From contig NZ_CP024866.1 of assembly GCF_004136015.1 (NCBI RefSeq), positions 1,088,944-1,152,943 on the forward strand: 64,000 nucleotides of DNA, written 5' to 3'. Shown here piece after piece: positions 50,288-64,000 of this stretch. The position numbers and the translations under genes were made by a program. Origin of the DNA: Pseudomonas sp. ACM7. Its GTDB lineage: Bacteria > Pseudomonadota > Gammaproteobacteria > Pseudomonadales > Pseudomonadaceae. A model generated the notes under the pieces. The model was not told the origin of the DNA. It saw only the letters and a program-made list of their open reading frames with translations, and did no database searches. Within the stretch, counting starts at the first letter, position 1. The number at the start of each line of letters is the position of its first letter.

Positions 50288-51743
50288 ACCACGACCTCCC
50301 ATCCCGCGTGATCAATGCAATGGAGCTCATCGGCCCCCAGGACCCGGCCGCGTACGGCTTGGGCGCATCACCGGATTTTTTCCACCCGGCGATCAGCTGG
50401 TCACACCACTTCCACGCGGCTTCGATTTCATCTTTACGGACAAACAGGTTCTGATTGCCGCGCATCACTTCCAGCAACAACCGCTCGTAGGCATCGGGAA
50501 TCCGTGCGCTGCGATAAGTGTCGGAAAAATTCAGCTGCAACGGACCGCTGCGCAGCTGCATGCCCTTGTCCAGGCCTTGTTCTTTGGTCATCACGCGCAA
50601 GGAAATGCCTTCGTCCGGTTGCAGGCGGATAATCAGCTTGTTGCTGATTTGCAGGCGCTGCTCGGGAGCAAAGATGTAGTGGGACGGTTCCTTGAAGTGG
50701 ATGACGATCTGCGACAGCTTCTGCGGCATGCGCTTGCCGGTACGCAGGTAAAACGGCACGCCGGCCCAACGCCAGTTGCGGATATCGGCACGCAGCGCAA
50801 CGAAGGTTTCGGTGTCGCTCTGGGTGTTGGAGTTAGGCTCTTCCAGGTAACCGGGGACCGGTTTTCCTTCGCTGTAGCCGGCGATGTACTGGCCGCGCAC
50901 GACCTGAGTGGTCAGCCCTTCCGGGCTGATCGGCGCCAGCGCCTTGAGCACTTTGACTTTCTCGTCACGGATGCTGTCGGCGGACAGGTCGGCCGGCGGG
51001 TCCATGGCGATCAGGCAGAGCAGTTGCAGCAGGTGATTCTGGATCATGTCCCGCAGCTGGCCGGCCTTGTCGAAGTAACCCCAGCGACCTTCGATCCCGA
51101 CCTTCTCGGCCACGGTGATTTCCACGTGGGAGATATAGTTCTGGTTCCACTGGGTTTCGAACAGGCTGTTGGCGAAACGCAGGGCGATCAGGTTCTGGAC
51201 GGTTTCTTTGCCCAGGTAGTGGTCGATGCGGTAGGTGCGGTTCTCCGGGAAGAACTGCGCCACGGCGTCGTTAACCTTGCGCGAGGATTCCAGGTCCGAA
51301 CCGATGGGTTTTTCCAGCACCACGCGGGTGTTTTCGGTCAGGCCGACCTTCGACAGGTTCTCGCAGATCGCGCCGTAAACGGCGGCCGGTGTCGCGAAGT
51401 AGGCAATCACCCGCTGGGCGCTGCCAGCCATTTCGGCCAGGGCGACGTAATCGTCAGCCTTGAGGAAGTCGACGTGCAGATAACTCAGGCGGGCCAGGAA
51501 GCGTTCCACCACAGCTTCGTCCAGCTCTTTGGCGCCGACGTAGCGGCGCAGCTCGGAGGCGATGAACGCCAAATGTTGCTGCTCGCTGCCAGGCTCACGG
51601 GCCAGCGCGATAATTCGCGTGTCCTCGTGCAACAGGCCTGCGCCATCGAGCTGATAAAGGGCAGGAAACAGCTTGCGCAGGGCCAGATCGCCGAGGGCGC
51701 CGAACAAGGCAAAGGTGCACGGTTCAACCGTAATCGAAGGCAT
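50274..51743 (-). CDS. zwf: Glucose-6-phosphate 1-dehydrogenase
   Basis: A 489-residue enzyme oxidising glucose-6-phosphate to 6-phosphogluconolactone with reduction of NADP. The active-site DHYLGK is at 174-179. The Rossmann motif reads [15 protein letters not shown], with a Leu in place of the usual Ser of GASGDLA. It is the first gene of zwf-pgl-eda and divergent from hexR, with a HexR-type site in between. Pseudomonas usually have several zwf paralogues; this is the one tied to HexR. Confidence 0.95.
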
Positions 51744-51748
51744 GATGT

Positions 51749-51756
51749 TTGTTCTT
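51749..51756 (-). promoter_or_regulatory. Candidate Crc/Hfq motif upstream of zwf
   Basis: On the coding strand AAGAACAA, six bases before the ATG, matching AAnAAnAA. Confidence 0.45.
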
Positions 51757-51808
51757 TTATCAAGTTAAGCTACAAATACCTTTTTTCAAGGCATCACTCA
51801 AGGGAAAA

Positions 51809-51824
51809 TGTAGTAATAACCACA
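51809..51824. promoter_or_regulatory. Candidate HexR operator between zwf and hexR
   Basis: TGTAGTAATAACCACA is an imperfect inverted repeat (TGTAGT against TGTGGT) 66 bases before the zwf start. HexR in Pseudomonas binds TTGT/ACAA-type palindromes upstream of zwf; the match here is approximate. Confidence 0.5.
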
Positions 51825-51973
51825 ACATTTTCGCAAAATACAGATTCCGAGTGGTGGACGGTCGGAGCCATCAGTAGGATAGGCCACCGTTACGGGCCCG
51901 ATCAAAGTCCCAATTTGCATAGCCGGGGCCCTTATTTGCATTGCTCTCATGTTTGCGGAGCTAAGGAACATAT

Positions 51974-52843
51974 ATGGACCGCGTGCGAAATTTACTGGAA
52001 CAGATCCAGAATCGCCTTGAAGACCTGAACAAGGCAGAACGCAAAGTCGCCGAAGTGATCCTGCTCAACCCGCAGCAGGCCACCCGGTTCAGCATCGCCG
52101 CGCTCGCCCAGGCCTCAAAGGTCAGCGAGCCGACGGTCAACCGTTTCTGCCGTTCGTTCGGCGTCAGCGGCTACCCGGAACTCAAGCTTCAATTGGCCCA
52201 GAGCCTGGCCAGTGGCGCGGCATATGTCAGCCGTGCGGTCGAGGCCGACGACAATCCGGAGGCGTACACCACGAAGATTTTCGGCAGCGCCATCGCCTCG
52301 CTGGACAGTGCCTTGCAGGCGCTTGACCCGAACCTGATCAGCCGCGCTGTCGACCTGTTGATCCAGGCCCGGCAGATCCACTTCTTCGGCCTCGGCGCCT
52401 CGGCCCCGGTGGCGCTGGATGCGCAGCACAAGTTCTTCCGCTTCAACCTGGCGGTCACCGCCCACGCGGACGTGCTGATGCAGCGCATGATTGCGTCGGT
52501 GGCGCACACCGGCGAGTTGTTCGTGATCATTTCCTACACCGGCCGTACCCGCGAACTGGTGGAAGTGGCGCGTATTGCCCGGGAAAACGGTGCTTCGGTA
52601 CTGGGCCTGACGGCCGAGGGCTCGCCACTGGCCAAGGCCAGCACGTTGAGCCTGAACATTCCGCTGCCGGAAGACACCGACATCTATATGCCGATGACGT
52701 CGCGGATCATTCAGTTGACCGTGCTGGATGTGCTGGCGACCGGCATGACTTTGCGCCGCGGTGTGGATTTCCAGCCGCATTTGCGCAAGATCAAGGAAAG
52801 TCTGAATGCCAGTCGGTATCCGATTGGGGATGAGTTTAATTAA
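51974..52843 (+). CDS. hexR: HexR, RpiR-family repressor
   Basis: A 289-residue regulator. The N-terminal helix-turn-helix ([22 protein letters not shown], then [21 protein letters not shown]) is followed by a C-terminal SIS domain (about residues 120-260) that binds the sugar phosphate, ALFVGASAP-like ([17 protein letters not shown]). HexR represses zwf-pgl-eda, edd-glk and gap-1 until KDPG is present. It is divergent from zwf. Confidence 0.94.
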
Positions 52844-52937
52844 AAAGATCGCAGCCTCGCTTCGCTCGACAGCGCCTACAGGTTTACACGATCCCTTGTA
52901 GGATCTGTCGAGTGAAACGAGGCTGCGATCTTTTGAT
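52844..52937. repeat. REP-type palindrome, family A
   Basis: AAAAGATCGCAGCCTCG and its inverse; the left arm carries CTTCGCTCG and CGCCTACA changes. It lies between convergent hexR and mutarotase genes. Confidence 0.9.
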
Positions 52938-52938
52938 C

Positions 52939-53793
52939 TTACGCCCCGACCCGCGCCTGCAAACTCAAATGCGCCCTCTCCCCCGGCGCCAGGCTCAGGC
53001 TATCGGTCCCGCCGCTCGCGGCTTCAACACACACAAACTCCGAAATCTCATTCCAGCTCACCCCCAGCAACGGCCGCGAGCCCGGATGCCAAACCACCGT
53101 GTCCGCATGGTCGCCGGTATCGATGCACAACTCGCGCTGCCAGGCGTGGTCCTTGAGCTGTAATTCGCCGTCATGCTGGAACACCCGCTGACAGCCACCC
53201 TCTACCCGCAACTCGCCTTCCTGATGACAAATCTGACGGTTCAACTGGTCGTAACCCTGTGCCCCGTCGAGGCCAGACAGCGCTACCTCACCGACATCGC
53301 CAATACGCCAATACGCATGCAACGCCTGACTCAATTGGCACGGCAGGCTGTCCTGATGCTCGGTACTCAGGCGCAACTCCATGCGTTCGCCCAAGTGCGC
53401 GTGCAGGTCCACTTGCCAGTCACACAACTGAAGTTGCCAGTGCAAGCGCACGCCATCGTCATCAGTGCTGCTGTCCAGCAGCTTCCAGTCGATCAACCGT
53501 GCCCAGCCATGGGACGGCCAGGCATTTTCGCTCGGATGACGGCCATACCACGGCCAGCACACCGGAACGCCACCACGAATCGCGCCGACCTGCGGCCACT
53601 TCGCCGCGCACCAAAGCCAGGGTTTCTGGCCCTTTGGCTGGAAGTGCAGCAACTGCGCACCCTGCCGACTGAACACCGCCTGACACAGTGGATGGTCGAT
53701 CACCAGCACGTCGCGCTTCTGATAGCGCTCCCACGCGAACACCGGACGTTCGCGCAAGGATTTGAAGAAGCGTTGTAGCGGATGCTCATGCAT
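52939..53793 (-). CDS. D-hexose-6-phosphate mutarotase (aldose 1-epimerase family)
   Basis: A 284-residue beta-sandwich enzyme. AQLLHFQPKGQKPWLWCAAK and GGVPVCWPWYGRHP are YeaD-type motifs, and a His and a Glu for catalysis are expected near HGWARLIDW and WNEISEFVCVE. It interconverts alpha and beta anomers of glucose-6-phosphate or related sugars for Zwf. Its place between oprB and hexR is as in P. putida. It starts at 53793; the RBS is weak. Confidence 0.85.
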   Translation of the reverse strand: MHEHPLQRFFKSLRERPVFAWERYQKRDVLVIDHPLCQAVFSRQGAQLLHFQPKGQKPWLWCAAKWPQVGAIRGGVPVCWPWYGRHPSENAWPSHGWARLIDWKLLDSSTDDDGVRLHWQLQLCDWQVDLHAHLGERMELRLSTEHQDSLPCQLSQALHAYWRIGDVGEVALSGLDGAQGYDQLNRQICHQEGELRVEGGCQRVFQHDGELQLKDHAWQRELCIDTGDHADTVVWHPGSRPLLGVSWNEISEFVCVEAASGGTDSLSLAPGERAHLSLQARVGA

Positions 53794-53833
53794 GTGCCAC
53801 GGTCCTGAAAATCACCCGGGGTGCGCAGCCCCC

Positions 53834-53868
53834 AAAAAAAAGCGGACAGCCTGGGCTGTCCGCAAAAA
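53834..53868 (-). terminator. Terminator after oprB
   Basis: GCGGACAGCC pairs with GGCTGTCCGC around two bases, with a run of T on the minus strand, about 33 bases after the oprB stop. Confidence 0.92.
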
Positions 53869-53901
53869 TGCGCACATAGAGAGGAGCTTATCGCAACAGC
53901 G

Positions 53902-55248
53902 TTAGAACACCGACTGAATTTTCAGGCCGGCGACCAGCGCGTTGTCGACTTCATCAACACCGCCCGGGTGAGTGATGTATTGCAGGTTAGGGCGCACGGT
54001 CAGCCAGTTGGTAACGTGGAAGCCGTAGTTGATCTCGTAGTTGTACTCGGTGGTACGCAGCGGCGAGAACAGTGGATCCTCGTACTCGGTAACACCATTG
54101 GAGGCGTTGACCAACTCAGCGTTTTTCTTCACGTCATCGTTGACATGGATACGGGCGAAACCGATTCCGACGTCATCTTTTGGACGTGCGTCGAACGGGC
54201 CTTTGTACACAAACATCAACGACTGGTAGTTGTCGACGAAGTTGGTGTCCTTGTCGTGAAAAGTGGCGTTGGCGGCAACGTTCAGACCGCGGGACGCGTC
54301 ACCGTTGTGGCTGGTGAGTTGTTGCTGCGCAACGAACCAGTAGCCGTGTTTGCTATCGTGGCTGCGATAGGCGTTACCGCTGGTTGCAGCATCATTGCCG
54401 TTTTCATCCTTTCGGACGTCATCGGCATTGGCCGTGCTTTTGTAGTAACCGACACGGTATTCGCCCGGCAGGTTGTTAGGGTTAGGCAGCCAGACCAACT
54501 CGACCGGCAACACAGTGCCCGCAGTACCACTGCCGCTGAGCTTGAAGCCGTTACCGTGTTCCAGTTGCGACGGGTTCTGGTTGTAAGCACCGATCTGCGC
54601 ATAGAACTCAGGCGAGATGTTGTACTTCACACGCACAGCAGCCTGCATGACCGGCCAGTTGTACCAGATGTTGGTGGCCCAGTTACCCGCCTGGGAACCG
54701 CAGAACGCCAGGTTCTGGAATTCGCACGGGAAGGTGTTGAAGTCTTCGCCTTCGCCGAAGTAACCGGCTTTGACGTCCAGTTTGCCGTCGAGGAACTGGT
54801 GCTTGACCCACAACTGGGTCAGACGGACCATATGGCCACGGCCGTAGACTTCCTGGGACGAACTCAAGGTGCCGGCACGCGGGTCGCCGACACGGTCATT
54901 GGAGATGTTCTGACCGTTACGGTTGGTGAACTGGATCTTGGCCTGGGTGTTATCCCAGCCCCACAGTTTTTGCAGGTCCAGCGCCACGCCCAGACCAAAC
55001 TGGTCGGCGTAACGCGCGGTCTTGTCATCATTAAACCCGCCGTGGAGGTTGCCGCCCACTTCACCGACGTAGTCCATCTTGATGTCGATACCCTGCTCGA
55101 TCAGCTTGGTCCGCTCGCCACCCCAATCACCGGTCATCCATTCGGAATCGGCGCTGAACGCGTCAGCCGCGTGCACGCTACCGGCCAACATCATTGCCGC
55201 AATGGCTGACAACTGGCAGATAAGCTGAGCGTTGTTGTTCTTCTTCAT
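53902..55248 (-). CDS. oprB: Carbohydrate-selective porin OprB
   Basis: A 448-residue outer membrane porin. A 27-residue signal peptide ends SVHA. The mature part is a barrel rich in aromatic girdle and Gly/Asn residues (GGNLHGGFNDDKTARYADQ), and the closing GLKIQSVF ends in Phe, as outer membrane proteins do. It takes up glucose and other sugars. A terminator follows and the A-rich motif AATAACAATAAAA precedes it. Confidence 0.94.
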   Translation of the reverse strand: MKKNNNAQLICQLSAIAAMMLAGSVHAADAFSADSEWMTGDWGGERTKLIEQGIDIKMDYVGEVGGNLHGGFNDDKTARYADQFGLGVALDLQKLWGWDNTQAKIQFTNRNGQNISNDRVGDPRAGTLSSSQEVYGRGHMVRLTQLWVKHQFLDGKLDVKAGYFGEGEDFNTFPCEFQNLAFCGSQAGNWATNIWYNWPVMQAAVRVKYNISPEFYAQIGAYNQNPSQLEHGNGFKLSGSGTAGTVLPVELVWLPNPNNLPGEYRVGYYKSTANADDVRKDENGNDAATSGNAYRSHDSKHGYWFVAQQQLTSHNGDASRGLNVAANATFHDKDTNFVDNYQSLMFVYKGPFDARPKDDVGIGFARIHVNDDVKKNAELVNASNGVTEYEDPLFSPLRTTEYNYEINYGFHVTNWLTVRPNLQYITHPGGVDEVDNALVAGLKIQSVF

Positions 55249-55260
55249 CCCTACATCCTC

Positions 55261-55274
55261 GTTTTATTGTTATT
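55261..55274 (-). promoter_or_regulatory. Candidate Crc/Hfq motif upstream of oprB
   Basis: Coding strand AATAACAATAAAAC, 13 bases before the oprB ATG; matches AAnAAnAA. Confidence 0.55.
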
Positions 55275-55339
55275 AACTGTTTTTATTTAACGCGGTTCAC
55301 ATCGGTGGCGGCGGAGGTCTCCATCCGTCGCGAATCCCC

Positions 55340-55430
55340 CTGTGGGAGCGGGCTTGCTCGCGAATGCGGTCTGACATTCAACAGGGATGTCGACTGATAC
55401 ACCGCCTTCGCGAGCAAGCCCGCTCCCACA
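55340..55430. repeat. REP-type inverted pair, family B
   Basis: CTGTGGGAGCGGGCTTGCTC and GAGCAAGCCCGCTCCCACA between oprB and gtsD, both on the minus strand. Confidence 0.9.
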
Positions 55431-55438
55431 TTTGATCT

Positions 55439-56599
55439 TTATCTGCCTTTGAATTGGGCGACGTTGGCGCTGTGGCTCTCGGCTTTTGGCTGACCAGCCA
55501 CCCCCAGGCGCTCACCGGTCTTGGCATCGAACAACAGCACTTTCGATGGATCGAATTGCAGGGTCAGGGTCTCGCCCACGGCCGGTGCAACGTCCGGCGC
55601 CAGACGGCAGCAGACTTTTGTTTCGTTGAGATTGACGAACACCAGGGTGTCGGGACCGGTCGGCTCGGTGACCTGGACTTCGGCGCGAATGATCGGCAAA
55701 CCATTCGGCTCGCTGCCCGCCAAAACGATCTGTTCAGGACGCATGCCGAGGATCACTTCGCGGTCTTCAAGACCGGCGTCCTGCATGCCCAACGGCAATT
55801 CGCAGCGCGCCTGACCGCTATCAAGCAACGCCACCAGACGACCCTCCTTGCGCTGCAAACGCAGGGGGATGAAGTTCATCGGCGGCGACCCGATGAAGCT
55901 CGCCACGAACAGGTTGGCCGGGTTGTTGTAGATGTCTTTCGGCGTGCCGAATTGCTGAATGATCCCGTCCTTCATCACCGCCACTTTGTCGCCCAGGGTC
56001 ATCGCTTCGATCTGGTCGTGGGTCACGTAGACCGTGGTGGTTTTCAGGCGCTGGTGCATCAGTTTCATTTCAGTGCGCATCTCGACGCGCAGCTTGGCGT
56101 CGAGGTTGGACAGCGGTTCGTCGAACAGGTAAATCTTCGGCCGCCGCGCCAAGGCACGGCCCATCGCCACGCGCTGTTGCTGACCACCGGAGAGCTGGCC
56201 GGGTTTGCGGTTGAGCAAATGTTCGATCTGCAGCAGCTTGGCTACCCGCGCCACTTCCGCTTCGATGTCGGCGGCGGGCATTTTGCGGATCTTCAAGCCA
56301 AAGGCGATGTTCTCGCGCACGCTCATGGTCGGGTACAGCGCGTAGGACTGGAACACCATGGCGATGTCCCGGTCTTTCGGGCTCATGCCGCTGACGTCCT
56401 GGTCACCGATCATGATCGCGCCGCCGGTGATGGTCTCCAGACCGGCGATGCAATTCATCAGGGTCGATTTGCCGCAACCCGAAGGTCCGACCAGGATCAG
56501 GAACTCACCGTCCTTGATCGACAGTTCGATGTTCTTGAGGGTGTCCGGCAGGCCGGGGCCATAGGTCTTGTTTACATTGCGAAGTTCGAGCGTAGCCAT
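55439..56599 (-). CDS. gtsD: Glucose ABC transporter ATP-binding protein GtsD
   Basis: A 386-residue MalK/UgpC-type ATPase. Walker A GPSGCGKST is at 38-46. The signature LSGGQQQRVAMGRAL, Walker B IYLFDEP and switch His (YVTHDQ) are present, and a C-terminal TOBE domain follows (about 240-370). It energises GtsBC for glucose and mannose uptake. It is followed by oprB and starts two bases after gtsC. Confidence 0.94.
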   Translation of the reverse strand: MATLELRNVNKTYGPGLPDTLKNIELSIKDGEFLILVGPSGCGKSTLMNCIAGLETITGGAIMIGDQDVSGMSPKDRDIAMVFQSYALYPTMSVRENIAFGLKIRKMPAADIEAEVARVAKLLQIEHLLNRKPGQLSGGQQQRVAMGRALARRPKIYLFDEPLSNLDAKLRVEMRTEMKLMHQRLKTTTVYVTHDQIEAMTLGDKVAVMKDGIIQQFGTPKDIYNNPANLFVASFIGSPPMNFIPLRLQRKEGRLVALLDSGQARCELPLGMQDAGLEDREVILGMRPEQIVLAGSEPNGLPIIRAEVQVTEPTGPDTLVFVNLNETKVCCRLAPDVAPAVGETLTLQFDPSKVLLFDAKTGERLGVAGQPKAESHSANVAQFKGR

Positions 56600-56601
56600 G
56601 A

Positions 56602-57447
56602 TTACCCCTTGACTGCGCCGGCCGTCAGCCCGCGCACGAAATACTTGCCTGCGACCACATAGACCAGCAGGGTCGGCAGCCCGGCGATCATCGCCGCCGC
56701 CATATCAACGTTGTATTCCTTGGCCCCGGTACTGGTGTTGACCAAGTTGTTCAACGCCACCGTAATGGGTTGCGAGTCACCGCTGGAGAACACCACGCCG
56801 AACAGGAAGTCGTTCCAGATCTGGGTGAACTGCCAGATCAGGCAGACCATGATGATCGGGGTGGACATCGGCAGGATGATCAAGCGGAAGATGGTGAAGA
56901 AACCCGCGCCATCCAGCCGCGCCGCCTTCACCAGCGCATCGGGAACGCTGACATAGTAGTTACGGAAGAACAGCGTGGTGAACGCCAGGCCGTAGACCAC
57001 GTGCACGAACACCAGGCCCGTGGTGGTGCTCGCCAGGCCCATCTTGCCGAGGGTGAACGAGGCCGGCAGCAGGACGGTCTGGAACGGCAGGAAGCAACCG
57101 AACAGCAGCAAACCGAAGAACAGTTGCGAGCCTCGGAAGCGCCACATCGACAGCACGTAGCCGTTCAGCGCACCGATGGCAGTGGAGATCATCACCGCCG
57201 GGACGGTGATCTTGATCGAGTTCCAGAAATACCCGTCGACAGTGCCCCAGGCCTTGACCCAGCCAATGCCGCTGACAACGGTCGGCCAGCTCAGCAGGTT
57301 GCCGGAGTTGATGTCTTCCGGCGTCTTGAAACTGGTCAACAGCATGACCACCAGCGGTATCAGGTAAAGGAATACGGCCAGGATCAGCACGCCGTAGATG
57401 GCGATGCGACTCAGGCTGATGGATGGTTTGGCAGCGAAACTAGTCAT
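56602..57447 (-). CDS. gtsC: Glucose ABC transporter permease GtsC
   Basis: A 281-residue permease with six membrane helices. The EAA loop (DALVKAARLDGAGFFTIFRLIILP) contacts GtsD. An N-terminal leader TSFAAKPSISLSRIAIYGVLIL is also typical of MalG-type permeases. It overlaps gtsB by eight bases and lies two bases before gtsD. Confidence 0.94.
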   Translation of the reverse strand: MTSFAAKPSISLSRIAIYGVLILAVFLYLIPLVVMLLTSFKTPEDINSGNLLSWPTVVSGIGWVKAWGTVDGYFWNSIKITVPAVMISTAIGALNGYVLSMWRFRGSQLFFGLLLFGCFLPFQTVLLPASFTLGKMGLASTTTGLVFVHVVYGLAFTTLFFRNYYVSVPDALVKAARLDGAGFFTIFRLIILPMSTPIIMVCLIWQFTQIWNDFLFGVVFSSGDSQPITVALNNLVNTSTGAKEYNVDMAAAMIAGLPTLLVYVVAGKYFVRGLTAGAVKG

Positions 57448-58348
57448 GACGCTTGGTCCTCAGCTCGGAGTACAGGTAAGGCACGATGATTGCGAGAATC
57501 GCACCGAGCATCAGAATCGCACTGGCCGAGCCCATGCCCATCTGGCCGCGACTGAAGGTGAAGGAATACATGAACATCGCAGGCAAGTCGGAGGAGTAAC
57601 CCGGGCCACCGGCGGTCATTGCCGCCACCAGGTCGAAACTCTTGATCGCGATGTGGGCCAGGATCATCACCGCACTGAAGAACACCGGACGCAGGCTGGG
57701 CAACACCACTTTCAGGTAAATCCGCGGCATGCTCGCGCCATCGATCTGGGCGGCACGGATGATCGATTGATCAACGCCACGCAGGCCGGCGAGGAACATC
57801 GCCATGATAAAGCCCGAGGCTTGCCATACCGCAGCGATCACCAGGCAATACACCACGCGGTCCGGGTCAATCAGCCAGTCCAGGCGAAAGCCTTCCCAGC
57901 CCCAGTCACGCAGCAATTTGTCCAGGCCCATGCCCGGGTTGAGCAACCACTTCCAGGCGGTGCCGGTGACGATCATCGAGAGCGCCATCGGGTACAGGTA
58001 AATGGTGCGAATGAAACCTTCGCGACGAATGCGCTGGTCTAGAAACACCGCCAGCAGCACACCGATCACCAGGGTGATGCCGATGAACATGCCACCGAAA
58101 ACCGCCAGGTTCTTGCTCGCTACCCACCAACGGTCGTTGTCGAACAGCCGCTCGTATTGCGCCAGGCCCGCCCATTTGTAAGTCGGCAGGAAGGTCGACG
58201 TGGTGAACGACAGGACAAACGTCCAAAGGATATAGCCATAGAAACCCACCAGGACGATGAACATGCTGGGCGCCAGCACCAGTTTGGGGAGCCAGCGCTG
58301 CAGTGCATCGAACGGCGAGGCCTTGCTGAACACAGCAACAGAACTCAT
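57440..58348 (-). CDS. gtsB: Glucose ABC transporter permease GtsB
   Basis: A 302-residue MalF-type permease with about six to eight membrane helices and an EAA loop (SIIRAAQIDGASMPRIYLKVVLP). With GtsC it forms the channel. ATG 58348 is preferred over an earlier in-frame ATG at 58387 that would add residues like RLYSFLFVRDLP, which do not look like a normal N-terminus. Confidence 0.92.
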   Translation of the reverse strand: MSSVAVFSKASPFDALQRWLPKLVLAPSMFIVLVGFYGYILWTFVLSFTTSTFLPTYKWAGLAQYERLFDNDRWWVASKNLAVFGGMFIGITLVIGVLLAVFLDQRIRREGFIRTIYLYPMALSMIVTGTAWKWLLNPGMGLDKLLRDWGWEGFRLDWLIDPDRVVYCLVIAAVWQASGFIMAMFLAGLRGVDQSIIRAAQIDGASMPRIYLKVVLPSLRPVFFSAVMILAHIAIKSFDLVAAMTAGGPGYSSDLPAMFMYSFTFSRGQMGMGSASAILMLGAILAIIVPYLYSELRTKRHD

Positions 58349-58393
58349 GGGAAGATCCCGTACGAAGAGAAAGGAATACAAGCGCATTTCCCT

Positions 58394-58482
58394 TGTGGGA
58401 GCGGGCTTGCTCGCGAAAGCGGAGTGTCAGACAACACTGCATGAACTGACACGACGCCTTCGCGAGCAAGCCCGCTCCCACA
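58394..58482. repeat. REP-type inverted pair, family B, within the gts operon
   Basis: CTTGTGGGAGCGGGCTTGCT and AGCAAGCCCGCTCCCACA between gtsA and gtsB. A hairpin here could reduce gtsB read-through or stabilise the gtsA message. Confidence 0.9.
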
Positions 58483-58503
58483 GGAGGGGATGCGCGCTAA
58501 CGG

Positions 58504-59805
58504 TTACTTGGCAGCTTTGACGGCCGTGCCGAGCTGCTTGGCGGCAACGGCAGGATCGGCTTTCGGATCGTTGATGAAGTTGGTCACGACATCAAAGAAC
58601 GCACCTTGTACCGCCAGCGTGGTCGCCATGTTGTGCGCCATGCTCGGCTGCAGGCCGCCGGACTTGGCGTCCGCCAGGAAGTCCTTGGCAGCGGTCTGGG
58701 CGCAAGAGTCGAAACCGTACTTGCCCATGTCGTTCAGCATGTCGATTCGAACCGGAATCGAGCCCTTGTTGATGCTGAAGACTTTCTGGAAGTTCTCACC
58801 GAGCACGACCTTGGCAATGTCCTGCTGAGCGGCAGCAGTGCCCTTGTCTTTCTGCTTGAACACGGCCAGGGAGTCGATGTTGTAGGTGAAGGCCTTGTCG
58901 GTGCCCGGGAAGGCTACGCACTCGTAGTCCTTGCCGGCGACTTTCTTGGCCGCTGTCCACTCGCTCTTGGCCCAGTCACCCATGATCTGCATGCCGGCCT
59001 TGCCGTTGATGACCTTGGCTGCTTCCAGGTTCCAGTCCTGGCCTTTGCCGTCGGCGTCCATGTAGGTCGCGACTTTCTTCAGCTCGGTCAACGCCTTGAC
59101 CATTTCAGGGCCGGTCAGTGCAGCGTTGTCCAGGTCGACCAGGGCTTTCTTGTAGCCGTCGACGCCCATGACCGAAAGGACCACCGCTTCGAACACGGTG
59201 CTGTCCTGCCAAGGCTGGCCGCCGTGGGCAAGCGCAATGAAGCCCGCAGCCTTGAGCTTGTCACCGGCCGCGTAGAATTCCTGAAGGGTGGTTGGCGCTT
59301 TTTCGATGCCGGCTTTCTTGAAGACTTCCGGGTTGATCCACAGCCAGTTGACACGGTGAATGTTCACCGGCACGGCCACGTAGTCACCCTCGTACTTCAC
59401 GGTATCGGAGACTTTCTTGTCGAGCAGGCTGTCCCACTTCTCTGTTTTGGCAGCGTCTTTCAAGACGTCGGTGTCGAGCAGACCGGTAGACGCCCATTCC
59501 TGGATGTCCGGGCCTTTGATCTGCGCTACGCCCGGCGGGTTACCGGCAACGGCGCGGCTTTTGAGTACGGTCATGGCCGTAGCACCGCCGCCACCGGCGA
59601 CTGCGCCGTCCTTCCAGGTAAAGCCGTCTTTTTCGACTTGGGCCTTCAGAACATCGACCGCGGCCTTTTCACCACCAGAGGTCCACCAGTGAACGACTTC
59701 CACCGAACCTTTGGAATCGGCGGCAAGCGCACTCAGCGGGAATGCAGACACCGGAAGCAGTGAGGCGAGAGAAATGACAGTAGCGAGGCGAGAAATCGCA
59801 TTCAT
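58504..59805 (-). CDS. gtsA: Glucose-binding periplasmic protein GtsA
   Basis: A 433-residue high-affinity glucose-binding protein. The signal peptide ([20 protein letters not shown], cleaved near LAA-DS) leads into [20 protein letters not shown], the start of family 1 binding proteins. [20 protein letters not shown] and the tryptophan-rich stretches match other glucose-binding proteins. An A-rich Crc/Hfq motif and the two-part element described below precede it. Confidence 0.94.
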
Positions 59806-59817
59806 CTAGTAGTACCT

Positions 59818-59830
59818 TTCTTGTTGTTAT
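59818..59830 (-). promoter_or_regulatory. Candidate Crc/Hfq motif upstream of gtsA
   Basis: Coding strand ATAACAACAAGAA, 12 bases before the ATG, matching repeated AAnAAnAA. Such motifs place gtsA among the catabolite repression targets. Confidence 0.6.
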
Positions 59831-59889
59831 GCATGCAAGTCTGGTGCTTGCGCTGCATAGGATTTTAAACAGGAGTGACCCCTTCGCAG

Positions 59890-59928
59890 GTAACGAAGGG
59901 ACGCTCGAATGTCACCACATGGTTACAC
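59890..59928. promoter_or_regulatory. Composite element S2 upstream of gtsA
   Basis: GTAACGAAGGG-N8-ATGTCACC-N5-GTTACAC, with the same order and spacing as element S1 near 61243-61281. It lies 85 bases before the gtsA start and overlaps the AGE stop codon. Candidate operator of a shared regulator, possibly GltR. Confidence 0.55.
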
Positions 59929-61182
59929 AGGAGCGCTCTGGGATAGCTGTGCCAAGGCAGTCGCCATACTCGGCGCCAGAGGCAATCGCGGGATCTGTAC
60001 GGCTTGCCAGGCGTGATAAAGGTCGGGTTTACCGGCCCAGATATCAGCGCTCGGGCGATTCTGCGGATCGAGTTCGTGGTGCCAGCTGCCGCTTTCGCGG
60101 TCGATGAAATGGCTGTCGCAGAATTCCCAAAATAGTCGGTACCAGCTTTCGTACTGCGCATCGCCTGTGCGTTTAAGCAGCGCACTGGCGGCGGCGCTGG
60201 CTTCGCAATGGGTCCAGTGCAGGCGATGGCGAACCACGGCGCGATTGTCCCAGTCGAGGGTGTAAACAATCCCCGGCGCCCCGTCGACATCCCACCCGTG
60301 ACGGCAGTTGTGGTCGAAGAGTTTTTGCGCGTCGGTGGCGAGCCAGCCCGGCGTCAGCATCCCGGCCTTAACCCGCGCCGCTTCAAGATGCAGCATCAAC
60401 CGGGACCATTCGAAACCGTGGCCCGGCGTGGTGCCGTAGGGGCGAAAACCATCGGCCGGGTTGTCGTGGTTGTATTCGCGCAAGGGTTGCCAGTCGCGGT
60501 CGAAATGCTCGACCACCAGATAATCGTTGGCAGCGGCGTGACCGTGGATGACGCGCTCGACAATGCGCTGGGCGCGGCACAGCCAACGGTTGTCGTCGGT
60601 GACATCAGCCAACGCGAGAAAGGCTTCGGTGGCGTGCATGTTGCTGTTGGCGCCGCGATAGCTTTCCTCTTCACTCCAGTCGCGGTTGAAGGATTCGCGC
60701 ATCGCGCCCTCCTCCTCGCTCCAGAAATGCGCGTCGATGATGTCGATGGCATCGTCGAGCAAGGCCTGCGCGCCGGGACGCTGAGCGACAACCGCAGAAC
60801 TGGCGGCCAGCGCGACGAAGGCGTGCAGGTAAGCCGCCTTGCCGGTGTTGCCGTCGCGATGTTCGGGGGCAGCGAACCAGCCACCGTGTTCGGCGTCACG
60901 CAATGGGCCGCTGAGGGCTTTGACGCCGTGATCCACCAGCCCCGCAAAACCCGGCAAGCCCTGAATGTGGGCCATGGCGAAGCTGTGGGTCATGCGCGCG
61001 GTGTTCATGGTTTCGGCGTGGGCGTTGGCCGGGAGGCAGCCCTTTTCATCGAGATTGCCGAAGCCTTCGGCAAGCTTCGAAGCTTTGGCAAACGCCAGCA
61101 GGCGCAGGCCTTCGGCGGCGAGCCATTGCTGATGGGCGGGTGCGTTCAGCCAACTGCTGAAAGCGGGTTGGAAGGTGTCCAT
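59923..61182 (-). CDS. AGE-family sugar epimerase/isomerase
   Basis: A 419-residue (alpha/alpha)6-barrel protein of the N-acylglucosamine 2-epimerase superfamily. Conserved segments include TARMTHSFAMAHIQG, HGGWFAAPEHRDG, KAAYLHAFVALAASS, NMHATEAFLALADVT and GHGFEWSRLMLHLE; these contain the active-site Arg and His residues that YihS, mannose isomerase and cellobiose epimerase share. Position in the gts operon suggests action on glucose, mannose or fructose, but the reaction is not known. Its 3' end and the gtsA upstream region overlap. Confidence 0.87.
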   Translation of the reverse strand: MDTFQPAFSSWLNAPAHQQWLAAEGLRLLAFAKASKLAEGFGNLDEKGCLPANAHAETMNTARMTHSFAMAHIQGLPGFAGLVDHGVKALSGPLRDAEHGGWFAAPEHRDGNTGKAAYLHAFVALAASSAVVAQRPGAQALLDDAIDIIDAHFWSEEEGAMRESFNRDWSEEESYRGANSNMHATEAFLALADVTDDNRWLCRAQRIVERVIHGHAAANDYLVVEHFDRDWQPLREYNHDNPADGFRPYGTTPGHGFEWSRLMLHLEAARVKAGMLTPGWLATDAQKLFDHNCRHGWDVDGAPGIVYTLDWDNRAVVRHRLHWTHCEASAAASALLKRTGDAQYESWYRLFWEFCDSHFIDRESGSWHHELDPQNRPSADIWAGKPDLYHAWQAVQIPRLPLAPSMATALAQLSQSAPV

Positions 61183-61190
61183 GGGGTGCC

Positions 61191-61204
61191 TTTTTTGTTG
61201 TTAT
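61191..61204 (-). promoter_or_regulatory. Candidate Crc/Hfq motif upstream of the AGE gene
   Basis: Coding strand ATAACAACAAAAAA, eight bases before the ATG, matching AAnAAnAA. Confidence 0.55.
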
Positions 61205-61242
61205 GACTGGGGGCAGTCTAAACAACGGGCGGTGGCGGGCTT

Positions 61243-61281
61243 GTAACGAAGGGGGCGAGTTATGTCACCGACTTGTGACAT
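61243..61281. promoter_or_regulatory. Composite element S1 upstream of the AGE gene
   Basis: GTAACGAAGGG-N8-ATGTCACC-N5-GTGACAT; the right part contains a perfect palindrome ATGTCAC-N6-GTGACAT (61262-61281). It lies 60 bases before the AGE start and repeats at 59890-59928. Confidence 0.55.
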
Positions 61282-61311
61282 TCAGCCTGAGGAATGTGTT
61301 GAAAAGTCTGA

Positions 61312-61392
61312 CGCCTTCGCGAGCAAGCCCGCTCCCACATTGGATTTGTGTACGACGCAAATCCAGTGTGGGAGCGGGCTTGCTCGCGAAGA
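61312..61392. repeat. REP-type inverted pair, family B
   Basis: CCTTCGCGAGCAAGCCCGCT and its inverse, separated by about 38 bases with a GGATTTG/CAAATCC centre, between gtrS and the AGE gene. Confidence 0.9.
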
Positions 61393-61409
61393 ACGATAAC
61401 GCGGTGCCG

Positions 61410-62879
61410 CTAATCAACACTGCGCGGCAATTGCAACGTCACCCGCAACCCACCCTCACGCAAATTCTGCAGGCTGACCTCCCCCCCATGGCTATGCGCA
61501 ATATTTCGCGCAATCCCCAACCCCAATCCATAACCCTGTTGCTGCCCGGCCAGGCGGAAGTGCGGCTCGAACACCTGCTCCATCCGCTGTTCCGGTACGC
61601 CTGGGCCTTCATCGTCTACATGCAGGATGAACGCACTCTGGTCGTCATCAATGTGCAGATGCGCTTTCTGCCCATACTTCAAGGCATTGTCGATCAGGTT
61701 GCCGATGCAACGCTTGAGCGCCAGCGGCTTCCCCGGATACGCCGCCAGCGCACGCCCTTGCTGGGTGACGCGACCATTGCCGTTGGGTGCCAGATACGGC
61801 TCCACCAGACAATCAAGTACATGGTTGAGGTCCACCGGCTCGATATTTTCGTGGATGTCGGTGTCTTTCACGCATTGCAGCGCGCCTTTGACCAGCAGCT
61901 CCAGCTCATCCAGATCCCGCCCGAACTTGGCTTGCAGCGTTTCGTCTTCGAGCAATTCAACCCGCAGCCGCAAGCGGGTAATCGGCGTGCGCAGGTCATG
62001 GGATATCGCGCTGAACAACTGGCTGCGCTCGGTCAGGTAACGGCTGATACGTTCGCGCATCGCATTGAAGGCGCGGCCGACTTCGACCACTTCACTGCCG
62101 CCGCCCTCGGCCACTGGCTCGACTTCCGCGCCGAGGGACATGTCCCGTGCTGCCCGCGCCAAACGCTTGAGCGGCCGGCTCTGCCAGTGCACCAGAAGAC
62201 CAATGAACAACAGCAAGAAGCCGCTGGTGAGCACGATGAACCAGACTTGCTGCGCCGGCAGGCCTTGTTCTTCAAGGCTGGTGTAGGGCTCGGGCAACAG
62301 CGAGGCGATGTACAGCCACTCGCCCGGTGCCATCTGGATTTGCGTGACCAATACCGGTGGGTTCACCGGCTCCAGGGTCAGCGCGTAATGCGCCCAGGAG
62401 CGCGGCAATTCATCGAGTTTCAGCCCGCTGTTGAAGATCCGCAGGTCTTCGGGGCTGACGAACGTCACCGAAATATCGGTGTCCTGGCCCAGGGACTGGC
62501 GCAACACTTCGTCCACCGCTTTGAGCACCGCTTCCTTGCGCGGGGTGATCGGCAGCACTTCCATGCCCAAGGGTTTGTCGTTGAGCGTCACCACAAAACG
62601 GGTGCCGCCCATGCTGCGCAACTGGTCGAGTACCAATGGCCGAAACGCTACCGGCAAAGAGCGGAAGTAACTGACGCTGGCCGTCATCGAATGAGCGAGG
62701 CTTCGGGCGCTGGTGACCAGGCCTTCAAGTTGGGTAGCGCGCAGTTGCGAGACCCAGATCACGCTCGACAACGTCTGGGCGAACAGCACCGCCAACAGCG
62801 TCAGCAGCAACATCCGCCCGAGCAGAGAACGCGGCACGGGAATCCGTGCGGCGAGCTTGCGGAAAAACTCAGTGGCCAT
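61410..62879 (-). CDS. gtrS: Sensor histidine kinase GtrS (partner of GltR)
   Basis: A 489-residue membrane sensor. An N-terminal helix (LLLLTLLAVLFAQTLSSVIWV-like), a periplasmic domain and a second helix precede a HAMP domain. The HisKA core has LFSAISHDLRTPITRLRLRV with its phospho-acceptor His. The ATPase domain has CIGNLIDNALKYG (N box) and YGLGLGIARNIAHSHGG. It overlaps gltR by 11 bases. In P. aeruginosa GtrS senses 2-ketogluconate or 6-phosphogluconate and acts through GltR on glucose transport. Confidence 0.92.
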   Translation of the reverse strand: MATEFFRKLAARIPVPRSLLGRMLLLTLLAVLFAQTLSSVIWVSQLRATQLEGLVTSARSLAHSMTASVSYFRSLPVAFRPLVLDQLRSMGGTRFVVTLNDKPLGMEVLPITPRKEAVLKAVDEVLRQSLGQDTDISVTFVSPEDLRIFNSGLKLDELPRSWAHYALTLEPVNPPVLVTQIQMAPGEWLYIASLLPEPYTSLEEQGLPAQQVWFIVLTSGFLLLFIGLLVHWQSRPLKRLARAARDMSLGAEVEPVAEGGGSEVVEVGRAFNAMRERISRYLTERSQLFSAISHDLRTPITRLRLRVELLEDETLQAKFGRDLDELELLVKGALQCVKDTDIHENIEPVDLNHVLDCLVEPYLAPNGNGRVTQQGRALAAYPGKPLALKRCIGNLIDNALKYGQKAHLHIDDDQSAFILHVDDEGPGVPEQRMEQVFEPHFRLAGQQQGYGLGLGIARNIAHSHGGEVSLQNLREGGLRVTLQLPRSVD

Positions 62880-63600
62880 TGCTGGCAACCACATTGGCGG
62901 CCAGTTGGTAGCCGCTGCCACGCACGGTACGGATCAGCCGCGGTGGTTTTTCGGTGTCGCGCAGACGCTGGCGCAAACGGCTGACGGCCATGTCGACGAT
63001 GCGATCCAGCGGCATCAAATCACGACCACGGGTGGCGTTGCCGATGGTGTCGCGGTCGAGGATTTCCTGGGGGTGATCGAGGAACAGTTTCAGCAGCGCG
63101 AAATCGGCACCGGAGAGAATCACTTCTTCGCCGTCGATGTGGAACAGTCGGTGGCTGACCATGTCCAGCCGCCAGTCATCGAAGGCCAGCACCTCACTGC
63201 CGGAACGTTCCTGACCGAACTGCGCGCGACGCAACAAGGCTTTGATGCGCGCCTGCAATTCACGCGGGCTGAAGGGTTTGCCGAGGTAATCGTCGGCGCC
63301 CAATTCCAGACCGATGACGCGGTCGGCCTCGTCGGAACTGGCGGTGAGCATGATGATCGGCACCTGCGCCTGACGTGGGTGCTGACGGATCCAGCGGCAG
63401 AGACTGAAACCGTCTTCGTCCGGGAGCATGACGTCGAGGATCACCAGATCGCTCGGTGCCTCGTTCATCGCCTGACGAAAGCCTGCGCCGTCGGGCGTGG
63501 TTCGCACCTGAAAACCCGCGCGAGTCAGGTAGGTGTCCAGCAACTCGCGTATCTCTTGATCGTCATCGACCAACAAAATCGACTTGTTGACTGAGCTCAC
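62869..63600 (-). CDS. gltR: OmpR-family response regulator GltR
   Basis: A 243-residue response regulator. The receiver domain has the acidic LLVDDDQE, phospho-acceptor Asp56 (VILDVMLPDEDG) and Lys108 (DYLGKPFSP). The winged helix C-terminal domain (VLAFDDWRLDMVSHRL, then RLRDTEKPPRLIRTVRGSGY) follows. I selected the GTG start at 63600 because it gives VSSVNKSILLVDDD, the typical N-terminus. A frame reading further upstream would run into a REP and IS sequence. It regulates oprB and gts glucose uptake. Normally glk would be upstream; here an IS5 element lies about 105 bases away. Confidence 0.92.
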   Translation of the reverse strand: MSSVNKSILLVDDDQEIRELLDTYLTRAGFQVRTTPDGAGFRQAMNEAPSDLVILDVMLPDEDGFSLCRWIRQHPRQAQVPIIMLTASSDEADRVIGLELGADDYLGKPFSPRELQARIKALLRRAQFGQERSGSEVLAFDDWRLDMVSHRLFHIDGEEVILSGADFALLKLFLDHPQEILDRDTIGNATRGRDLMPLDRIVDMAVSRLRQRLRDTEKPPRLIRTVRGSGYQLAANVVASNGH

Positions 63601-63613
63601 AGGGGCGGCATCC

Positions 63614-63622
63614 TTGTTGTTT
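63614..63622 (-). promoter_or_regulatory. Candidate Crc/Hfq motif upstream of gltR
   Basis: Coding strand AAACAACAA, about 13 bases before the GTG start, matching AAnAAnAA. Confidence 0.5.
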
Positions 63623-63679
63623 GAATTGGGCGGATTATGCCTGATGGACCTTGGATATTTGTTGCCTGTTCTGGCCTCA

Positions 63680-63700
63680 TCGCGAGCAAGCTCGCTCCCA
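63680..63700. repeat. REP-type half, family B, interrupted by the IS
   Basis: TCGCGAGCAAGCTCGCTCCCA stops where other copies would continue with C(A)GG; CTAG and the IS end follow, so the insertion lies inside or directly beside a REP. Confidence 0.7.
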
Positions 63701-63704
63701 CTAG

Positions 63705-64000
63705 GGAAGGTCTGAAGTACCCACCGATTTTTCATGCCCTCTCTGCTTGAGGTTCAAAAAATCATGAGTCGGTCGAAAAACAGGCCTTTCCTGTCCTTAA
63801 TTCATGGTTCTTTCCTCTAGTCGCGCTGCTTCAGGGCGATCAGCCTGCATTACAGACGCACCTCGCCCATACCCATCAACCGTTTTCGCACCATCCACAG
63901 ATTCGACAAAGCGAACAAGGTTGTCTGTTGAGCGATGTTTTTCGACAAGCCACGAAAGCGCACTTTCGTATAGCCAAACTGGCGCTTGATCACGCGAAAC
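63705..64000 (-). mobile_element. IS5-family insertion sequence, cut by the window edge
   Basis: The left end reads GGAAGGTCTGAAGTACCC, like the terminal inverted repeats of IS5-type elements (IS5 itself starts GGAAGGTGCG). It is preceded by CTAG (63701-63704), which fits the CTAR target duplicated by IS5. The transposase C-terminus lies within. The other end is outside. Confidence 0.75.
63850..63999 (-). CDS. IS5-family transposase, C-terminal fragment
   Basis: The minus strand encodes the last 49 residues, including FRVIKRQFGYTKVRFRGLSK and LFALSNLWMVRKRLM, then GMGEVRL and a TAA stop at 63850-63852. This is the usual end of IS5-type transposases, with Y-(2)-R-(3)-E-(6)-K signature region residues and the KVRFRGL stretch. 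The rest of the gene lies beyond the window, so it is partial rather than known to be broken. Confidence 0.82.
   Translation of the reverse strand, partial: FRVIKRQFGYTKVRFRGLSKNIAQQTTLFALSNLWMVRKRLMGMGEVRL

Follow-up and report, generated by a model that had tools for sequence, protein, structure and literature searches.

Two copies of a composite sequence element in the window (the whole 64-kb stretch of DNA analyzed here) are very probably operators of the response regulator GltR, from which the gtsABCD-oprB uptake genes and, separately, the D-mannose isomerase gene manI would be activated. Binding, footprints, and glucose induction have been shown by others in P. aeruginosa only; in the window's organism, GltR binding and activation, as well as the control of manI, are predicted from sequence comparisons. 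A scan of the window found exact matches of GTAACGAAGGG-N8-ATGTCACC-N5-GTNACAY at 59890-59928 and 61243-61281 only, with the identical order and spacing that the earlier note had described, and the pattern had no match in 100 dinucleotide shuffles of the window. No further composite was present in the window at up to 4 mismatches. In the whole genome (6,602,560 bases), a search that the earlier note had proposed returned these two copies alone at up to 3 mismatches, and none for the backwards control; the full composite is specific to the gtsA and manI promoters within this genome. The looser pattern GTNAC-N6-GTNAC-N13-TTCGTTAC matched 27 genome places at up to 3 mismatches, the window pair with none and the other 25 with 3, and its backwards control matched 64 places. 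Two extra genome places of another loose pair, TGTNAC-N5-GGTNACA, were set aside as chance, this pattern having 5 matches versus 6 for its backwards control; the first place has no ORF of at least 120 amino acids over it, and the second lies between two ORFs.

The two adjacent genes share a strand, as had been claimed; this is the minus strand, and the composite is therefore best read as its complement, TGTNAC-N6-GTGACA-N12-TTCGTTAC. In this gene-strand reading, three GTNAC boxes are followed, 21 to 22 bp further on, by a -10-like hexamer. The boxes of the gtsA copy (59890..59928, minus strand) are GTAAC (59922-59926), GTGAC (59911-59915), and GTTAC (59890-59894, within TTCGTTAC), and those of the manI copy (61243..61281, minus strand) are GTCAC (61275-61279), GTGAC (61264-61268), and GTTAC (61243-61247). 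The perfect palindrome ATGTCAC-N6-GTGACAT reported for one copy was located at 61262-61281, inside the manI copy. The distance to the start codon is 60 bases for manI (start at 61182), as previously given, and 84 bases, rather than 85, for gtsA (start at 59805). The gtsA copy overlaps the final codons of the upstream manI gene, which stops at 59923.

The product of gtsA (58504..59805, minus strand) is, on the basis of gene order and orthologues, the periplasmic glucose-binding protein of the GtsABCD ABC transporter (GltB in P. aeruginosa); its GlcS-like match is weak and below the cut-off, and it has no Pfam match. The remaining uptake cluster, gtsB, gtsC, gtsD, and oprB (53902..58387, minus strand), was assigned from the ORFs and from an OprB domain (PF04966), and an aldose 1-epimerase gene lies beside it, also on the minus strand. 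Both genes preceded by the composite had been taken for glucose uptake genes, which is wrong for the "AGE" gene: this gene (59923..61182, minus strand) encodes a predicted manI-type D-mannose isomerase of the AGE superfamily (PF07221), its product scoring 735 bits against NF051846, for which the curated cut-off is 600. REP-like palindromes (cgagcaagcccgctcccaca) were noticed by eye at 58400-58480, after gtsA, and at 61310-61395, between gtrS and manI. The gtrS/gltS gene (61410..62921, minus strand) encodes an EnvZ-like sensor histidine kinase according to its domains and its position beside gltR, the name being given by gene order. The gltR gene (62869..63735, minus strand) encodes, by its domains, an OmpR-type response regulator, the predicted binder of the composite; its true start is probably near 63600, because many orthologue matches begin around residue 45. 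Beyond the window, upstream of gltR, are glk, edd, and a divergent gap gene (locus L176).

The composite is conserved before both genes in relatives, a comparison that had likewise been proposed. For gtsA, 141 upstream regions of 150 bases were compared, comprising that of the window, the best 80 of 591 loci, and 60 regions hand-picked for diversity from a gtsA search that matched 193 of 298 genomes. GtsA identity within this set, the best 80 of 591 included, reaches down to 59%. The strict pattern of boxes and spacing fits 134 of the 141 regions, and five more are one feature off, L119 having ATGAC as box 2 and L146, L150, L171, and L172 a spacer shorter by 1 base, so that the composite precedes gtsA in 139/141 regions (best 80 of 591 loci included). 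It is absent in two, L144 and L173, each of which is a second gtsA-like gene in its genome (G244 and G274, respectively), with no match to gltR, gltS, or manI in the 6 kb retrieved upstream; lacking both the composite and gltR/gltS in these 6 kb, they probably belong to a sugar transporter under different regulation. All 134 strict gtsA sites (again with the best 80 of 591) have GTGAC as box 2 and GTTAC as box 3. Among 47 distant strict sites, the mean pairwise identity is 76% in the composite, where the strict pattern fixes some letters by construction, versus 36% in the seven preceding bases.

For manI, 79 loci were fetched, and 77 were retained after removal of L042 and L046, which have fewer than 150 bases upstream. 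The composite was found at most 420 bases before manI in 75 of the 77 loci, always with at most 1 mismatch, whereas the best match in a control with one letter-shuffle per locus always had at least 5 mismatches. The full composite is missing from L126, which has none of it, and from L128, which has boxes 1 and 2 alone. In eight manI loci, it lies 154 to 287 bases before the gene start instead of about 97. Box 1 differs by gene, being GTAAC in 102 of 134 gtsA sites (which include the best 80 of 591) versus GTCAC in 68 of 70 manI sites.

The distribution of the composite follows that of gtsA and gltR. A sequence model built from 37 composite sites, applied at an E value of at most 0.01 with stricter filters, matched 103 of 198 sampled Pseudomonadaceae genomes, some of which had themselves supplied sites to the model. 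When these 198 genomes, taken to be G000 to G197, were crossed with the gtsA search, in which an orthologue was defined by an E value below 1e-130, the model matched 103/104 genomes with a gtsA orthologue and none of the remaining 94 (6 with a distant homologue and 88 without a match). The exception, G026, has a decayed copy before gtsA, GTATC-N6-GTTAC-N13-TTTGTTAC; the best GltR relative of this genome shows 58% identity and is encoded on a different contig. GltR was searched for in 17 genomes, and all 16 that have no gtsA orthologue lacked a GltR relative of more than 51% identity; 13 had no GltR match at 1e-60, and 3 had matches at 48 to 51% identity. After exclusion of 25 rows that were opposite-strand echoes of the same inverted repeat, 125 model matches were kept, with 79 before gtsA, 20 at the isomerase position, 2 on other contigs, and 24 in genomes without listed gtsA coordinates; one of these 24 was opened (G059) and lies before gtsA. 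Of the 2 on other contigs, that of G030 is before the isomerase gene on a split contig. The other, in genome G091, is a full composite at 2013-2049 on the minus strand of contig 5 (L208). It precedes by 170 bases an ORF running from 1842 to beyond 1, whose product has a domain of family-3 glycoside hydrolases (PF00933, 142 bits) but reaches no NCBIfam cut-off. In this copy, TTTGTTAC stands 21 bp before TAGAAT, the same spacing as at gtsA and manI sites with 21 bp. Given that domain, the sole full copy found away from gtsA and manI would also serve a sugar gene, and the G091 glycoside hydrolase gene is a possible further GltR target. Four weak model matches outside the family (194 genomes of the order; best E value, 0.0013) and others elsewhere in the window's genome (E values of 0.3 to 0.7) were treated as background.

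The composite agrees with the GltR site described for P. aeruginosa. In the accessible portions of their paper, Xu et al. (2021; PMC7927077) report the consensus GTNACAAA from ChIP-seq and footprinting, a single 8-bp core in 16 peaks, and give the PAO1 gltB site as 5'-GTGACAAACCCGGA-3', with GltR footprints on the gltB promoter at -44 to -13 and -11 to +15, two adjacent protected stretches of approximately 32 and 26 bp. Among 25 genomes searched of one genus, the GTGACAAACCCGGA 14-mer occurred in one, G126, before gtsA (L174), where the sequence TGTAAC-CATCCC-GTGAC-AAACCCGGATCGC-TTCGTTAC is the same composite. When the footprint coordinates are transferred to this relative, boxes 1 and 2 fall within footprint I and TTCGTTAC within footprint II, whichever way the numbering is read. 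With the published site located inside the L174 composite, and with the published footprints mapping in this relative to boxes 1 and 2 and to box 3, GltR is well supported as the regulator; the earlier proposal of an operator for a common regulator, GltR, is borne out by this agreement, by the conservation, and by the co-occurrence with gtsA and gltR. The window's GltR shares 78% identity with its counterpart in the relative carrying the published site (L175). Its stretch RIVDMAVSRLRQRLRDT, intact in 122 of 125 sequences, holds the spacing I-x2-M-x7-R, which is that of the residues Ile200, Met203, and Arg211, proposed as DNA contacts of GltR in the available part of PMC5902321. Box 2 of both window copies, GTGACAT, fits the GTNACA of GTNACAAA and not its final AA. 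Exact GTGACAAA occurs in 28 of 70 manI sites, in 1 of 134 strict gtsA sites (best 80 of 591 included), and in L174; in the strict gtsA set, box 2 is followed by A in 108 sites, by C in 23, and by G in 3, the A of GTGACA being missing in 26. Other known P. aeruginosa GltR targets are opgG and ctpH, and the accessible text of PMC7232493 and PMC11544825 gives no GltR site at gtsA.

The boxes have a fixed placement relative to the promoter. Box 1 to box 2 is 11 bp and box 2 to box 3 is 21 bp, a phasing that would put all three on the same side of the double helix. The GTNAC sequence is self-complementary, and boxes 1 and 2, taken with the T and A that flank them, read as an inverted repeat. A TANNNT hexamer (TAGACT, TAGAAT, TAAACT, TAAAAT, and rarer forms) follows TTNGTTAC at a spacing of 22 bp in 118 of the 141 gtsA regions, the best 80 of 591 among them, and at 21 bp in another 21. 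Before manI, one of these two spacings is found in 69 of the 80 regions scanned, the other 11 comprising L033 (a cut contig) and regions with the composite displaced or incomplete within the scanned stretch. In the window, the -10-like hexamers are TAAAAT (59862..59867) for gtsA and TAGACT (61215..61220) for manI, both on the minus strand and 22 bp after TTCGTTAC, and transcription is predicted to start near 59855 and near 61208, respectively. A scan for consensus sigma-70 promoters over 59780-61420 found nothing. With the hexamer 21 to 22 bp away, box 3 would end where a -35 hexamer would begin, which is the position expected of an activator that replaces the -35 element.

The leaders of both genes also have features of their own. 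In the window, the leader of gtsA is the stretch 59806-59856 and that of manI is 61183-61222, both on the minus strand. An inverted repeat GCAAG..CTTG is present in the gtsA leader in 136 of the 141 regions (best 80 of 591 included). A AANAANAA run is found at most 32 bases from the start in 141/141 gtsA leaders, again including the best 80 of 591, and in 72/80 isomerase leaders; this run resembles the Hfq/Crc target motif. Predicted hairpins in the leaders are weak, hardly more stable than those of shuffled sequences (z = -1.0 and -1.7).

A different mode of action, in which GltR binds as a repressor and is released on phosphorylation, is very unlikely. It stems from Daddaoua et al. (2014; PMC4081096), who, in the accessible text, describe GltR as a repressor with the consensus tgGTTTTTc at edd, gap-1, glk, oprB, and toxA and operators at or near the reported start sites. 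According to the available part of PMC7927077, the 2014 gltB site overlaps the same DNA as the site of Xu et al., and the strain used in 2014 carries a base change and a deletion there; in the same source, glucose induction of gltB is lost in a gtrS-gltR mutant and also without the GTGACAAA bases, and phosphorylation of GltR raises its binding to gltB. The boxes lie upstream of the -10-like hexamer, at 21 to 22 bp in 139/141 gtsA regions (including the best 80 of 591). Neither window gene has GTTTTT in its 150 upstream bp on either strand, and in the 150 bp before gtsA in the 141 regions, the best 80 of 591 included, this sequence occurs in 2 on the gene strand and 20 on the other, with the full TGGTTTTTC in 0/141 on either strand. 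The 2014 consensus was therefore rejected as an account of the composite; the earlier remark that the element is unlike the GTTTTT core holds against this consensus but not against GTNACAAA of Xu et al. The published P. aeruginosa start contradicts the proposed geometry unless it is misplaced: the numbering start sits inside box 3, and the geometry would put the start approximately 37 bases downstream of it. If the geometry is right, a main structural argument for GltR as a repressor is removed.

Still less probable is binding of the composite by another regulator of sugar metabolism. HexR, RccR, PtxS, and GntR all control neighboring pathways, and a domain search placed a HexR-type (RpiR family) gene at 51974-52843 on the plus strand. 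However, the published HexR motif TTGT-N7/8-ACAA was not found by a scan of window positions 51501-64000, and the motifs of PtxS (TGAAACCGGTTTCA), GntR (AC-N-AAG-N-TAGCGCT), and RccR (TGTAGT/ACTACA) differ from the composite when compared by eye; on these published motifs, HexR was rejected by the scan and the other three by eye. The composite also tracks gtsA and gltR across genomes. At L176, three HexR-type sites were found, two of them between edd and gap around 6312 and 6374, in an intergenic stretch with no copy of the GltR composite, an arrangement suggesting that uptake and catabolism are controlled separately. That the two promoters are alike only as recent duplicates is scarcely credible, for all their shared order and spacing, adjacent genes, and similar leaders with AANAANAA motifs, as the spacers have diverged while the boxes and their spacing are retained over many genera, the two genes have different box 1 sequences, and the copy before gtsA persists also where no manI was found nearby; common descent may account for the origin of the pair, which is compatible with an operator and not an alternative to it.

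Under activation by GltR, periplasmic glucose would activate the sensor GtrS, a step demonstrated in P. aeruginosa, where it proceeds via GltB, the counterpart of GtsA. GltR would then be phosphorylated and bind the three same-face GTNAC boxes. With the last box abutting the start of the -35 position, 21 to 22 bp before the -10-like hexamer, bound GltR may recruit RNA polymerase from box 3, and gtsABCD-oprB and, separately, the D-mannose isomerase gene would be switched on.

The regulator GltR and the published core motif are already known, whereas the three-box form with its fixed spacing, its family-wide extent, and manI as a GltR target were not found in the open-access literature, supplementary tables aside. 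The two papers conflict both on the GltR site and on activation versus repression, and the conservation pattern provides independent evidence favoring the GTNACA motif and activation, expands the 8-bp core into an operator of three boxes whose promoter geometry is fixed, and allows a regulator to be proposed for the D-mannose isomerase gene. We lean toward a broader picture in which GltR of the Pseudomonadaceae is mainly a dedicated switch acting at one or two promoters per genome, that is, at gtsABCD-oprB throughout, at the adjacent manI in some lineages, and occasionally at another sugar gene, for example one for a glycoside hydrolase, through a fixed three-box operator in an activator position; mannose-to-fructose conversion would then be pre-induced by glucose, and the start used for P. 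aeruginosa, on which the repressor model rests, would be off by approximately 37 bases. For P. protegens Pf-5, the accessible part of a 2018 report describes the appearance of fructose in the medium of cultures growing on glucose together with mannose, with no mannose isomerase gene annotated (PMC6293094). If Pf-5 carries manI, its placement under a glucose-sensing switch could explain this fructose.

Promoters of PhoB/OmpR-type activators have repeated boxes one helical turn apart, the last of which lies beside a poor -35 element, and a retained -10 element. The composite resembles them in its repeated boxes, with the last next to a poor -35 and the -10 kept, and is unlike them in that GTNAC is self-complementary, the first two boxes and their flanks make up an inverted repeat, and box 3 is two turns away. 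With the P. aeruginosa gltB operator, as described in the available text of PMC7927077, it shares the core GTNACA and the position before the same gene, but here there are three boxes with fixed spacing and a second copy at a mannose isomerase gene. Compared with the operator of 2014, as given in the accessible portions of PMC4081096, the regulator is the same, whereas the published GTTTTT motif and repressor model differ from the composite.
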